Below are positions 7,104 through 19,964 of a stretch of 52,345 nt of DNA, piece by piece. Numbering within the stretch: the first letter of the stretch is position 1; every line of letters begins with the position of its first letter. This DNA comes from Chloroflexota bacterium (GTDB lineage Bacteria > Chloroflexota > Dehalococcoidia > Lucifugimonadales > UBA826), in contig PBKS01000018.1 of the NCBI GenBank assembly GCA_002722155.1, forward strand, positions 1 through 52,345. The letters are read 5' to 3'. The notes beneath the pieces are model-generated. The model did no database searches. It was not told the origin of the DNA and was given only the letters and a program-made list of their open reading frames with translations. The position numbers were made by a program, and so were the translations under genes.

Positions 7104-7755
7104 ATTTAAATTATATCCATCTATATTGTCAGCTGACTTCGCTCATCTAGACAAACAAATAAGAGAGTCGGAAAAATGCGGCGCTGATGGCATACATATT
7201 GATGTAATGGACGGTCAATTTGTTCCAGCAATCACATTTGGATCTCCCATAGTCGAGGCAGTGCGAAGATCAACCGATTTGCCCATAGATATACATATGA
7301 TGACAATTGCCCCAGAAAACCATTTTAAAGAACTAATTGAGGCTGGGGCCGATTCGATTACAATACATTATGAAGCTTGTCACGATGTGAAAGCCACTTT
7401 AGAAGAACTGGGGAAACACAGCGTTCAGAAATCTGTAGCAATAAACCCAGCCACCCCTGTTGAATCAATCTCCAATGTGATGGGTATGATAGACCAAATA
7501 TTAGTAATGTCGGTAGTACCAGGGGCGGGAGGACAGTCATTCATACCAGAAAGTCTTACCAAGATTGCAATCTTGTCCGATCAGATCAAGGCTCAGGGCC
7601 TTTCGGTATCGATCCAAGTTGATGGCGGGATAAATTCAACTACAATAGCTGATACTGTAAATAGTGGTGCAGATATTTTGGTGGCAGGTAGCGCTGTCTT
7701 TAACGATTCTTTTTCAATATGTGATGGGCTATCAAAATTAAGGGATATCGATTAG
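7096..7755 (+). CDS. rpe: Ribulose-phosphate 3-epimerase
   Basis: This 219-residue TIM-barrel enzyme interconverts ribulose-5-phosphate and xylulose-5-phosphate in the pentose phosphate pathway. Family blocks are YPSILSADFAHL at the N-terminus, HIDVMDGQFVPAITFG (metal-binding His and catalytic Asp, about residues 34-50), DIHMM, MSVVPGAGGQSF and VDGGI near 175 (second catalytic Asp). The ATG lies inside the 3' end of argH with an 8-nt overlap, and the stop codon overlaps the tsaD start by one base. This points to coupled translation. Confidence 0.96.
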   Translation: MARFKLYPSILSADFAHLDKQIRESEKCGADGIHIDVMDGQFVPAITFGSPIVEAVRRSTDLPIDIHMMTIAPENHFKELIEAGADSITIHYEACHDVKATLEELGKHSVQKSVAINPATPVESISNVMGMIDQILVMSVVPGAGGQSFIPESLTKIAILSDQIKAQGLSVSIQVDGGINSTTIADTVNSGADILVAGSAVFNDSFSICDGLSKLRDID

Positions 7756-8786
7756 TGAATGTATTAGGTATTGAAACCTCGTGCGATGACACCGCCGCTG
7801 CAGTCATCACTGACGGCACAATAATTAAATCCAATATAGTGGCGTCCCAGTCCGATATGCATAAAAAATATGGCGGCATTATTCCAGAAATCGCTTCCAG
7901 AGAACACTTTACATCCCTTATACCTGTAGTCAATGAAGCTCTTGAACAGGCCTCACTCACGTACAAAAACATTGATGCAATAGCAGTCACTAATGGTCCA
8001 GGACTGGCTGGTTCACTTCTTATAGGAGTAAATTCCGCTAAAGGGTTGTCAATGTCCTGGGATAAACCTTTGATAGGTATCAACCATTTAGAAGGGCATA
8101 TATATTCTGCATGGCTCGAAGACCTAGAACCAGATCACCAAGCCGGGTTCCCATTGGTTTGTTTGATAGCTTCAGGAGGGCATACTGACCTGGTTGTAAT
8201 GAAAGATCATTTGGATTACAAATTAATTGGAAAGACGAGAGATGATGCCGCGGGAGAAGCTTTTGACAAAGCTGCAAGGGTTCTAGGTTTAGGATTCCCA
8301 GGTGGCCCTGAAATCCAAAAAATGTCGGAGGAAGCCTTAGAGACTGTCGCCGCCCTACCTAGACCTGCAATAAAAGATTCTCTGGATTTTAGCTTCAGTG
8401 GACTTAAAACTGCATTGGTAAGAAAGGCCGAAGCAGAAGGTTTTTACCCAGTCATAGATAATAATGGCCCAAGCCGGCAGCAAACTACAGAATACTCATT
8501 TGCTTTCCAAGAGGCCATAGTGGATTGTCTTGTCAGAAATACTGTAAAAGCTGTTTCTGAAAACAATGCCAAGGGTGTCATTTTGGGGGGTGGAGTTGCA
8601 GCAAACAGCAGGTTAAGGCAAAAAATGAATGATGCTATGGACGTCCCAGTTTTTGTTCCTCGACCAGGATTATGCACCGACAACGGAGCTATGATAGGAG
8701 CGGCCGCATTCTTCAATTTACAAAACGGATTACCATTTGAATTAGACATGGACGCCATCCCTAATTTAAGAATGGGAATTACCTAG
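7755..8786 (+). CDS. tsaD: tRNA N6-threonylcarbamoyladenosine synthase, TsaD subunit
   Basis: This 343-residue ASKHA-fold enzyme transfers the threonylcarbamoyl group to A37 of ANN-decoding tRNAs and works with TsaB and TsaE. It opens with VLGIETSCDDTAAAV. The metal-binding HxxxH is NHLEGH, at His111 and His115 by my count, as in the E. coli enzyme. LIASGGHTDLV, DDAAGEAFDKAARVLGL, FSFSGLKTA and GGGVAANSRLR follow in the expected order. The GTG start shares its G with the rpe stop (TAGTG). No tsaB or tsaE is in the window. The last 8 nt overlap the convergent membrane-protein gene. Confidence 0.97.
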   Translation: MNVLGIETSCDDTAAAVITDGTIIKSNIVASQSDMHKKYGGIIPEIASREHFTSLIPVVNEALEQASLTYKNIDAIAVTNGPGLAGSLLIGVNSAKGLSMSWDKPLIGINHLEGHIYSAWLEDLEPDHQAGFPLVCLIASGGHTDLVVMKDHLDYKLIGKTRDDAAGEAFDKAARVLGLGFPGGPEIQKMSEEALETVAALPRPAIKDSLDFSFSGLKTALVRKAEAEGFYPVIDNNGPSRQQTTEYSFAFQEAIVDCLVRNTVKAVSENNAKGVILGGGVAANSRLRQKMNDAMDVPVFVPRPGLCTDNGAMIGAAAFFNLQNGLPFELDMDAIPNLRMGIT

Positions 8787-9252
8787 GAATAAATATCCGT
8801 TTTTCCCTGTCCTCAGAATAAAGGTTAGTATCCACATGTACGAGCAAATCATCTCTTAATTGCCACAACTGATGTTCCGAAAGGCTTTTACCTAGTGGGA
8901 TTTTTGTGGACATGGCATTAGATTGAATTACAATACATGATTGATTGATTTGCGAATAATGGTCGAACAATAAAAATGAGCCCATCAATGTGAATACGCA
9001 AAGTGCAATTGTTTTCATAAGGAAATTATCCAGGCTGACCATGGAAACAAAAATCAAAACGATGAGCATTGCAAGCCATATAAATGGAAACTTAGACTGC
9101 CTTTTTATTGACTCAATGTAAATAGACTCCACGAATTCATACTTGATAAAGCCTTCTCTTTTCCCATCCTTACCTGTAATTAAATAGGAGATGCCATTTC
9201 TCGATGGAAAAATCCGCTGAGTTTCCCATGCTTTTTGGCTGATGTCTTCCAT
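8779..9252 (-). CDS. Hypothetical two-helix membrane protein
   Basis: I cannot name this 157-residue protein. It has two adjacent membrane helices (about residues 56-75 and 82-98) flanked by soluble beta-rich halves. The first half, ISYLITGKDGKREGFIKYEF, is followed by a conserved-looking segment VESIYIES. The second half is CIVIQSNAMSTKIPLGKSLS with a predicted C-terminal helix. A split beta-domain around a helical hairpin resembles bacterial PH-like membrane proteins (YcxB/bPH type), but that is only an impression. It is monocistronic, converges on tsaD with an 8-nt overlap, and lies back to back with the aldolase-like operon. Confidence 0.7.
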   Translation of the reverse strand: MEDISQKAWETQRIFPSRNGISYLITGKDGKREGFIKYEFVESIYIESIKRQSKFPFIWLAMLIVLIFVSMVSLDNFLMKTIALCVFTLMGSFLLFDHYSQINQSCIVIQSNAMSTKIPLGKSLSEHQLWQLRDDLLVHVDTNLYSEDREKRIFIPR

Positions 9253-9310: not shown

Positions 9311-10366
9311 ATGGAAAGACCAATCTCAAAGCCTATTGGGCAGCATTTTTTGGAACTAGATACTCCTACTTTGATTATTGACAAAAATCTTTTGCAAGCG
9401 AATATTGAGGCTATTCAGGCCGATCTAGAAAAGGCCAGTATTGATTTGATCCCAAATGCCGCTGCCCACGGGACATCTGCAATTGCCCGCATGCAAACCG
9501 GTAACAATACAAAATCTCCAATCTTTGTCGATACGTTCCAACAAGCAGAGTGTTTTTTTCAGGCCGGATTTGAAAACATAATTATTCAAGCGCCACCACT
9601 TAGTTTTACTAAAAAAGGTCTATTAAGACACCTGCAAGATTCACAAACCCTGACTTTGTCCATTTCAAACATTTCTCACTTGGACGCCATAAGAGGAAAT
9701 CATGGAAGTCCTATTTCTGTTTTACTAAAAATAACCAATAAATCAGACTCAGTAGGATTTAAAACACGCGAAGAATTAATAAAACCCATTGAATATCTGG
9801 CAACCTTTGAACATTTGCGTTTTGAGGGTTTGATCACAAATGCGAACGAAATGGAGTCTATGGAACAAGCATGTGAAGTACTAATATCTGCTGACGAATA
9901 TCTTGATAGAAATTCAATTTCTTCTGATCAACTACTGCTTAACGCTTCCAACCTGATATTTGAAAAAGAATTTAATAATATTCCAAAAGGAATAACTGGC
10001 TTGATATCCGGTACCTATCCCTTTCACACAAAAACGCAAGACACAGTTTGCTCAGTAATCAGCACCGTGATCAGCACTCCAGAACCAGGAAAAGCCTATG
10101 TTGATTGTGGTCAAAAAGCCATAAGCGTGGATCGCGGAGTTCCTTCAGTCATAAATTATCCAGACGCCGAGATTGAGAAAATGAGCGCCGAACATGGCTA
10201 TGTCATATTTGATAGTAATAAATTGCATTTGAAGATAGGTGACAAAATTTTATTGTCCCCAGCAAGCTATTCAGATACTTTCAACCTGTATGACTTCGTT
10301 AATATCATTGAGGAAGACAAGCTAATATCGATAATACCAACCGACTCACGTGGTGCCTTTAAATAA
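9311..10366 (+). CDS. D-threonine-aldolase/alanine-racemase-fold protein lacking the PLP lysine (probable pseudoenzyme)
   Basis: This 351-residue protein resembles the fold-type III alanine racemase N-terminal domain with a D-serine dehydratase-like C-terminal domain. It opens LELDTPTLIIDKNLL, the usual first strand. The next block, which in active relatives and in the neighbour holds H-A-K, reads IPNAAAHG, so the lysine is replaced by alanine. The Gly-rich phosphate loop is also absent (LLLNASNLIF). The C-terminal block VDCGQKAISVDRG is kept. The usual zinc pair in PNHxCPTxNLYD becomes SPASYSDTFNLYD, with His and Cys replaced by Ser. It is the first gene of a five-gene string and its partner starts 15 nt later. 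A structural or regulatory subunit is possible; its function is unknown. Confidence 0.75.
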   Translation: MERPISKPIGQHFLELDTPTLIIDKNLLQANIEAIQADLEKASIDLIPNAAAHGTSAIARMQTGNNTKSPIFVDTFQQAECFFQAGFENIIIQAPPLSFTKKGLLRHLQDSQTLTLSISNISHLDAIRGNHGSPISVLLKITNKSDSVGFKTREELIKPIEYLATFEHLRFEGLITNANEMESMEQACEVLISADEYLDRNSISSDQLLLNASNLIFEKEFNNIPKGITGLISGTYPFHTKTQDTVCSVISTVISTPEPGKAYVDCGQKAISVDRGVPSVINYPDAEIEKMSAEHGYVIFDSNKLHLKIGDKILLSPASYSDTFNLYDFVNIIEEDKLISIIPTDSRGAFK

Positions 10367-10381
10367 CTTCAGGAAAACTAA

Positions 10382-11479
10382 ATGAAATTTAACCAACCTA
10401 ACATAGGGAGCTCCATAGCTGACCTTGAAACTCCAAGTCTTATAATCGACCTTGAGGCTATGGAATCTAATTTCTCTGTAATTTCTGAAACCTATGCAAA
10501 CAGCACCTGTAAAATGCGCCAACACGCAAAAAATATTAAATGCCCAGATATTCTGTGGCGCCAAATTGAAATAGGTGGGACTCTGAACGGTGTGTGTGCG
10601 GCAAAAGTTTCTGAGGCAGAAGTTATGGTGGAAGGTGGAATTAGAGATGTTTTGATAACAAGTGAAGTCGTTGGTGAGGACAAGCAGAAAAGACTGGCAT
10701 ATTTGGCAAAGAGAGCCAATATAAAAGTTTGTATAGACAACAAAGAAAATTTGACAGGTCTATCGTCAATTGCCACTTCAATCGGATCTGTAATCGGAGT
10801 CTTGGTAGAGGTTGATACTTCTATGGGACGCGCCGGTGTCAGAACACCTCAGCAAGGATTAGAGTTGGCGCAATTGGCAGATTCGTTAGAATCTGTAGAA
10901 TTTTTAGGCGTGATGAGCCACCAGACGGTGGAAGGCTTTGCTGATAAAGAAACCAGGTTCCTAGAAGGCAAAAAATACATAGATATGTGTTTAGAGGTGG
11001 GAAAAACCATTCATGATTCTGGTATTGAAATAAAGGTAGTTTCCTCAGGGGAGACATTCTCCTATGATGTCGCCCCTATGATAGATGGAGTAACTGAGGT
11101 AGAAGGTGGCACATATGCGCTCATGAGCGGTCCCACCGCATACATGGAGGAATTTTCTCTGGCGGGGAAAGTACTGACCACTGTGATAGATGTAGATGAT
11201 GATCAAATCGTAATAGATGCCGGTATAAAGTGCCTAGGTGGTCCACTTGGTGTTAAACCAGGCATTGAGGGAAATAGACATATAACCTTCGATCAGATGT
11301 ACGATTCCTATAGTACCTTAAGCCGAAAAGGAAAGGACAACTACAAAATTGGAGATACTCTTTTAATCGAAACTTCGCAGCAAGATATATTGGTGAATAG
11401 ATGGGATCATTTTATTGGGGTGAGGGATGGGGTCGTGGAAGTAATTTATGAGATAAGTGCCCGGGGATGCCATCATTAA
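10382..11479 (+). CDS. PLP-dependent D-threonine aldolase/D-serine dehydratase-like protein
   Basis: This 365-residue protein belongs to the fold-type III family that includes D-threonine aldolase and D-threo-3-hydroxyaspartate dehydratase. LETPSLIIDLEAMESNF is followed by MRQHAKNIKCPD, which carries the PLP lysine. VEVDTSMGRAGV, the loop VVSSGETFSYD, VEGGTYALMSGP and VIDAGIKCLGG follow in family order. The C-terminal metal motif PNHxCP is not recognisable: the region reads IETSQQDILVNRWDHFIGV. The substrate therefore cannot be inferred from the metal-dependent relatives. AGGAAAA about 5 nt before the ATG serves as ribosome binding site. It follows a degenerate paralog by 15 nt and a methyltransferase follows by 12 nt. 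Confidence 0.85.
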   Translation: MKFNQPNIGSSIADLETPSLIIDLEAMESNFSVISETYANSTCKMRQHAKNIKCPDILWRQIEIGGTLNGVCAAKVSEAEVMVEGGIRDVLITSEVVGEDKQKRLAYLAKRANIKVCIDNKENLTGLSSIATSIGSVIGVLVEVDTSMGRAGVRTPQQGLELAQLADSLESVEFLGVMSHQTVEGFADKETRFLEGKKYIDMCLEVGKTIHDSGIEIKVVSSGETFSYDVAPMIDGVTEVEGGTYALMSGPTAYMEEFSLAGKVLTTVIDVDDDQIVIDAGIKCLGGPLGVKPGIEGNRHITFDQMYDSYSTLSRKGKDNYKIGDTLLIETSQQDILVNRWDHFIGVRDGVVEVIYEISARGCHH

Positions 11480-18863: not shown

Positions 18864-19964
18864 TTGTTCAAAAAAGTTTTCTACATATTACCCATCTTAT
18901 TCATCTATTTTTCTTTGATATTCTGTCAGAATGATTCTTTTGATACTGGACGGAATATTGTCGGTAGTCAAACCACACCTATTACGAATACCTACGACAG
19001 TCCAGATAAGATCGTCAAAGCAACAGTACAAGCGCGACTAGACATATTTGAAATTAGCCAGGCTGTAAATGACCAACTATCGATAGCATTAACAGCGACA
19101 TCTGTTGCTTTGCATGGCACCCCTACAGTTACAAAAACACCTTTGCCAACAGCTACAGTTACCCCATTACCGACCTCTACAAACACTCCAACTCCTCTTC
19201 CTACTTATACCCCGTTCCCGACTTACACCCCTGTACCGACGCATACAACAACTCCTCCGACCTACACTCCTGAACCAACACATACACCTTCCCCACAACC
19301 TACTCGAACCGCTACAAATACTCCAACGCCTACCGCCATTCCAACCATTACACCAACACCAACTGCTACGGCAATGAATATTTTGGAGAGCGCAAGTAAA
19401 AAAGTGGTTAAAATCATATCCGGCACAAGTGGCGGCAGCGGGGTATTAGTATCAAGCGGAAATGACCAAACTACCCTGGTTGTAACAAACGAACACGTTA
19501 TTGAAAATGCTTCAGACATGCTCATAGAATTGCACGATGAAAGTAAATATGAAGGCCTTATCCTATTTGAAGACCTAGAAATAGATATCGCCATAATTGA
19601 GATAAATGCCGCCAACCTCGAATGTTTCCCAATAATTCTTGGAGGCTCGCCTAATATTGGAATGGATGTATATGCTTTGGGTTACCCGCTTAACGCAAAT
19701 TACTCGGTTACTTCAGGTATAGTGTCGGCCAATCTATACGAAGAGAAAAGTGGTATACAGATGGTTCAAACTGATGCAGCCCTAAATCCAGGTAACAGTG
19801 GAGGGGCCTTGATTACTAGTGAAGGTAACCTAATAGGAATTAATACGAGTAGAAAGGAGGAAACCTCATCCGGGCGGATCATCAACAACATTGGGTACGC
19901 TACGCTGATTGATGAGGTATACAACCGAACACCTCATCTCTTCACAATTGACACAAGCAATTAA
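18864..19964 (+). CDS. Secreted or lipid-anchored S1C serine protease with Thr/Pro-rich stalk
   Basis: This 366-residue exported protease has an N-terminal hydrophobic segment (residues 5-20) followed by Cys21 in LIFC. That is a poor lipobox because Phe stands at -1, so it may be a lipoprotein or a membrane anchor. A stalk at about 85-170 is made of repeated TP, PT and YTP units. The C-terminal 195 residues form a trypsin-like domain: SGGSGVLVSS, His211 in TNEHV, Asp241 in EIDIAII and Ser312 in NPGNSGGAL, a complete triad. No PDZ domain follows, unlike DegP. The start is TTG, weakly supported. It converges on the transketolase-like gene with a 15-nt gap. Confidence 0.88.
   Translation: MFKKVFYILPILFIYFSLIFCQNDSFDTGRNIVGSQTTPITNTYDSPDKIVKATVQARLDIFEISQAVNDQLSIALTATSVALHGTPTVTKTPLPTATVTPLPTSTNTPTPLPTYTPFPTYTPVPTHTTTPPTYTPEPTHTPSPQPTRTATNTPTPTAIPTITPTPTATAMNILESASKKVVKIISGTSGGSGVLVSSGNDQTTLVVTNEHVIENASDMLIELHDESKYEGLILFEDLEIDIAIIEINAANLECFPIILGGSPNIGMDVYALGYPLNANYSVTSGIVSANLYEEKSGIQMVQTDAALNPGNSGGALITSEGNLIGINTSRKEETSSGRIINNIGYATLIDEVYNRTPHLFTIDTSN

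Follow-up and report, generated by a model that had tools for sequence, protein, structure and literature searches.

Among enzymes with solved structures, D-threonine aldolases and the beta-hydroxyaspartate aldolase BhcC are the nearest in sequence to the two genes analyzed in this work, referred to as A and B. AxDTA (4v15; 7dib) and BhcC (6qkb) share the fold and the two-domain build with this pair. AxDTA forms a head-to-tail dimer, in which each active site is composed of the barrel of one protomer and residues 295-298 and 319-323 of the beta-domain of the other, and its modelled substrate carboxylate touches Arg157 and the amide of Asp321 (PMC4401734). As a homodimer, AxDTA has two identical sites, and it carries a His/Asp metal site; here, by contrast, the functions are shared out over two genes, and A as well as most B proteins have lost the metal histidine. 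Moreover, features united in AxDTA and BhcC are split between the two genes: the PLP lysine and Arg157 reside in B, while the trans-loop residues K297 and E322-H323 reside in A. Chicken-type D-serine dehydratase and D-threo-3-hydroxyaspartate dehydratase have the fold and the PF14031 domain in common with A and B, but their His/Cys zinc site is absent from the pair. Alanine racemase is a homodimer as well. It shares with the pair the head-to-tail arrangement proposed for A and B, with B a histidine in the PLP-stacking position, and with both proteins similarity in structure (Foldseek TM of about 0.65-0.71 to the models of both proteins), but not in sequence, where similarity is low.

Pairs composed of a dead and a live paralogue are known from other enzymes. 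In serine palmitoyltransferase (LCB1/LCB2), a paralogue without the PLP lysine accompanies one that has it, and a heterodimer with a single active site is the working hypothesis for that enzyme (PMC3794620). It is eukaryotic, belongs to fold type I, and is unrelated to A and B in fold and reaction. In trypanosomes, the active paralogues of AdoMetDC (with its prozyme) and deoxyhypusine synthase need a dead one (PMC5201418, PMC3663545). These enzymes are also unrelated to A and B, and the prozyme relieves autoinhibition rather than completing a site. Our literature searches returned neither a heterodimeric D-threonine aldolase nor such a pair in SAR202, which does not prove their absence.

The pair is located in a 52,345 nt stretch of DNA (the window) from a Chloroflexota bacterium (GCA_002722155.1, contig PBKS01000018.1, positions 1 to 52,345), and its features are collected in Table 1. 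Gene A matches PF14031 (E 3e-12) and PF01168 (9e-7), its single-chain AlphaFold2 model (pLDDT 89.3) superimposes on 4v15 with TM values of 0.89/0.84, and these D-ser_dehydrat and Ala_racemase_N domains, together with the fold, place it in the DTA/DSD fold-type-III family. Aligned with AxDTA (E 5e-19), A presents p-n-a-a-a-h opposite P-H-A-K-A-H, and thus Ala51 stands at the position of K59. Further losses, in AxDTA numbering, are R157 (S147), Y187 (N177), T233 (I216), Q249 (I232), H347 (S319), and D349 (S321), while K297 (K269), E322 (E294), and H323 (H295) are kept. The initial annotation had described a D-threonine-aldolase-like fold, a lost PLP lysine, and serines at both C-terminal metal positions, and the analysis bears out each of these points; A therefore has neither the PLP lysine nor the His-x-Asp metal site of a D-threonine aldolase. 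Across A proteins, D265, G267, K269, G276, and P278 of loop 1 and S292, E294, and H295 of loop 2 are invariant. A conserved N-terminus, M-E-R-P-x-x-K-P (window 9311-9340, A residues 1-10), occurs only in A, being absent from B and from canonical enzymes, and is perhaps a heterodimer contact.

Table 1. Coordinates of genes A and B and of their active-site features in the window.
Feature	Position	Strand	Remarks
Gene A, lysine-less DTA/DSD-fold paralogue	9311-10366	+	351 aa, ATG start, frame open
A Ala51 codon, PLP-lysine position (K59 of AxDTA)	9461-9463	+	
A loop 1, D265-C-G-Q-K269-A-I-S-V-D274-R-G276-V-P278	10103-10144	+	homologous AxDTA loop 295-298 enters the site of the partner protomer (PMC4401734)
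A loop 2, S292-A293-E294-H295 (AxDTA 320-323, trans loop 319-323)	10184-10195	+	PMC4401734
A lost metal site, S319-Y-S321 for H347-x-D349	10265-10273	+	
Gene B, keeps PLP lysine	10382-11479	+	365 aa; starts 15 bp downstream of A
B Lys50 codon, PLP lysine	10529-10531	+	invariant in B
B His180 codon, PLP-stacking position	10919-10921	+	invariant in B; Tyr187 of AxDTA, His166 of alanine racemase (PMC4401734)
B degenerate counterpart of trans loop 1	11228-11245	+	Asp302 replaced by Pro288; lysine kept here, not in most B
B trans loop 2 without E-H, S309-Y310 instead	11306-11311	+	
B altered metal site, Q333-Q-D335	11378-11386	+	Asp kept, His lost

Gene B carries the same two domains as A, and its single-chain AlphaFold2 model (pLDDT 90.5) matches 4v15 with TM values of 0.91/0.89. 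It has the PLP lysine and the counterpart of Arg157 (K50, R150) expected of a D-threonine aldolase, but in place of His347 the window has Q333, and across B proteins this position is Gln in 58%, Tyr in 29%, and His in 13%. Beyond what the initial annotation had noted, the neighbour thus also lacks the His/Cys metal pair (Q333-x-D335). The trans-loop residues Asp302 (Glu in AxDTA), E322, and H323 are replaced in the window by P288, S309, and Y310, and the phosphate loop reads S-x-G-E-[ST] in place of G-G-G-T. Neither protein reaches the curated cut-off of 690 for the BhcC model NF045642 (A 96.7 bits, B 201.3 bits). Second copies of B were observed on short contigs or at contig ends (L128, G046:C117:324-1415; G051:C19:24-995), the latter with an internal TAA. 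The genome of the window also contains a third family member (L002, G000:C9:144848-145912) that resembles D-serine dehydratase, with a His-x-Cys metal motif in addition to the PLP lysine. Separately, two canonical paralogues in tandem, both bearing the lysine, were seen in family f29 (L093, G155:C31:65688-67985).

The losses in the two proteins are complementary. Residues were mapped in 40 A, 43 B, and 39 canonical sequences, with the pair from genome G026 set apart and percentages weighted. In A, K59, Q249, H347, and D349 are retained in 0% and R157 in 13% of sequences, while D293, G295, K297, E322, and H323 are each retained in 100% and Asp302 in 97%. In B, retention reaches 100% for K59 and D349 and 98% for R157, and falls to 21% for K297, 0% for Asp302, 33% for E322, and 56% for H323. 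At the 48 positions of the barrel and C-terminal part that canonical enzymes conserve, A retains 0.53 in the barrel and 0.88 in the beta-domain, against 0.72 and 0.57 in B; the interaction of gene and domain gives a permutation p of 1e-4 (positions treated as independent), and the Mann-Whitney p is 3e-5. Evolutionary rates cross likewise: the median barrel/beta distance ratio is 1.22 for A, 0.77 for B, and 0.95 for canonical enzymes, and within the genus, dN between G000 and G004 is 0.54 (barrel) and 0.21 (beta) for A, compared with 0.11 and 0.27 for B. Such crossing of residues and rates is what one would expect a heterodimer to leave behind if one of its sites is live (B barrel and A loops) and the other dead (A barrel and B loops). 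Distances of A and B also covary beyond those of TsaD (partial r 0.52, 14 genomes), which is modest support, because several of the 14 genomes are close relatives.

We therefore propose, with a probability of roughly 0.8, that A and B are the subunits of an obligate heterodimer whose single PLP site is composite, an arrangement like that of serine palmitoyltransferase in an alanine-racemase fold. The barrel of B would hold PLP on Lys50 and supply Arg150 and His180, while the beta-domain of A would cross the head-to-tail dimer and insert both invariant loops into the active site of B, contributing G-Q-K-A (Lys269) and S-A-E-H (the backbone amide of Ala293, Glu294, and His295). The mirror-image site, composed of the A barrel and the B beta-domain, would be dead and drifting. 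The sequences themselves show the retained residues, the co-occurrence, a single early loss of the lysine, purifying selection, and the crossed rates; the complex and its single working site we infer, and the trans role of the loops is carried over from a homologue whose identity is about 20-33%. B homodimers may still have some activity, since many B proteins hold one or two of the loop residues (H323 in about half).

By profile searches, 33 of 61 genomes carry both genes and the remaining 28 carry neither; the Fisher p of 5e-18 assumes independent genomes, while these are related MAGs whose counts are not independent events. These carriers belong to a single order of SAR202/Dehalococcoidia and represent about 20 of its families. 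In a search of 60 relatives, B adjoins A in most carriers, and in 26 of 27 adjacent pairs the two genes lie -4 to 76 bp apart. In three genomes both genes occur but were not found adjacent, lying far apart on one contig (G025, G048) or on different contigs (G059). Among 294 genomes drawn from the class, the carriers of A are also those of B, and A without B was found neither there nor in the 61-genome set; a single carrier in this class sample, G064, lies outside the order, and its A is truncated at the end of the contig. Scanning 84,980 species for the A N-terminal motif gave matches in Chloroflexota only, mostly in SAR202 or Dehalococcoidia. In a sample of the phylum, the strongest matches elsewhere retain the lysine. 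No natural A-B fusion was seen; an 889-aa frame in G046 consists of A plus an upstream open frame.

A tree built from 109 proteins by quick search, with SH-aLRT as the only support measure, unites all A in one clade (99) and all B in another (100), both apart from canonical enzymes. The lysine is absent from 41 of 42 A proteins, where readable sites hold Ser, Glu, Gly, Asp, Ala, Thr, and others. The sole keeper belongs to the G026 pair (L030 / L137, G026:C5:38900-41500), the deepest branch in both clades, which has the lysine in both genes and appears as a living intermediate of reciprocal loss; its B retains most trans-loop residues. As this deepest pair has the lysine and all other readable A proteins lack it, the lysine of A was, most simply, lost once and early, although the inner branching of A is unsure owing to several long branches.

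The alternatives differ in what they ask of A. That it is a decaying pseudogene or was recently inactivated might be suggested by its dN, which is 2-3 times that of B between more distant species of the window's genus. However, omega is 0.12-0.22 for A (0.06-0.16 for B) in pairs with estimable dS, the 351-codon frame is open in all eight genus members, and the loss is common to about 20 families, with the lysine kept only in the deepest pair. Decay and recent inactivation are refuted by omega, tree, and breadth, and A is clearly constrained by purifying selection, as the initial annotation had held from its open frame. A misaligned lysine, with another residue binding PLP in A, is very unlikely: Lys269 is indeed invariant in A, but it corresponds to K297, lies in the trans loop, and is present besides K59 in all canonical enzymes. 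Lysine exceeds 50% in A at only one N-terminal column before the barrel and at AxDTA columns 53, 108, 297, 340, and 365, and the A alignment offers no obvious replacement in the barrel, where no other lysine is invariant.

The initial annotation had also listed three roles for A: a non-catalytic subunit of its neighbour, a binding protein, or an enzyme with a new chemistry of its own. The last two would have A act independently, as a ligand-binding protein or a PLP-free enzyme, while B works alone. The A-specific N-terminus could be read this way, and so could the lost metal histidine, which is Asp in 62% of A, i.e., in most other families, and through which the A barrel could still bind something. 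Yet the barrel is the least conserved part of A, its outward loops are invariant, and A was not found without B, which leaves an independent A a slim chance. The idea of a subunit is favoured by co-occurrence and complementary residues, but "non-catalytic" appears too weak, since exactly the two partner-inserted loops of the AxDTA type are kept and A probably supplies part of the catalytic site. An allosteric, prozyme-like A, which binds and activates B but gives it no active-site residues, has precedents in the trypanosome enzymes cited above and fits co-occurrence and linkage equally well. It leaves unexplained why the exceptionless residues of A are two partner-pointing loops that B has lost, and we regard it as improbable. 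A dead and a live paralogue that always occur together and have complementary active-site residues, as A and B do, are what a heterodimer of the serine-palmitoyltransferase kind calls for.

With regard to chemistry, the reaction of the proposed heterodimer is probably not D-threonine cleavage, because the metal histidine is missing from A and most B proteins, even though B keeps Asp349. Along with this loss, the invariant His at the stacking position of B and the altered phosphate loop suggest a changed reaction rather than metal-assisted D-threonine cleavage. Our guess is that the pair converts a D-amino acid or beta-hydroxy amino acid without a metal, more likely by racemase-like or retro-aldol chemistry than by metal-assisted dehydration. 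We give about even odds to the fuller proposal of a bacterial fold-type-III obligate heterodimer in which duplication followed by reciprocal loss left a single composite site, and in which this live site also lost the metal histidine and was re-tooled (Tyr187 to His, Gly232 to Glu) to catalyse a reaction that the D-threonine aldolase family is not known to perform. Gene neighbourhood was considered as a substrate clue and dropped: tsaD is a close neighbour in the window and in 18 of 26 named loci, and argH, rpe, a methyltransferase, and a Nudix gene also recur, but no pathway gene pointing to a substrate recurs around the pair in these loci or the window. In most relatives tsaD is upstream, often with an opposite-strand gene between (window 7755-8786 and 8779-9252), whose 157-aa product in the window has no Pfam match. 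Elsewhere in the window, an ORF at 18864-19964 resembles, by eye, a trypsin-like serine protease whose N-terminal part is a long stretch rich in Thr and Pro.

Split sites formed by reciprocal loss are expected for duplicated homodimers with interface sites, and a clean example in which an intermediate survives is valuable. Because both genes of the G026 pair carry the lysine and the end state is represented by dozens of genomes, one can reconstruct and test the order in which residues were lost. Automatic annotation is likely to name A a D-threonine aldolase or an alanine racemase, which would be wrong for A alone. D-amino-acid use and racemase expansions in SAR202 have been discussed (PMC6946804), those expansions being of the enolase superfamily and not of the A and B genes. 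The A-B pair is widespread in SAR202, bacteria of interest for how they use D-amino acids and resistant organic matter.
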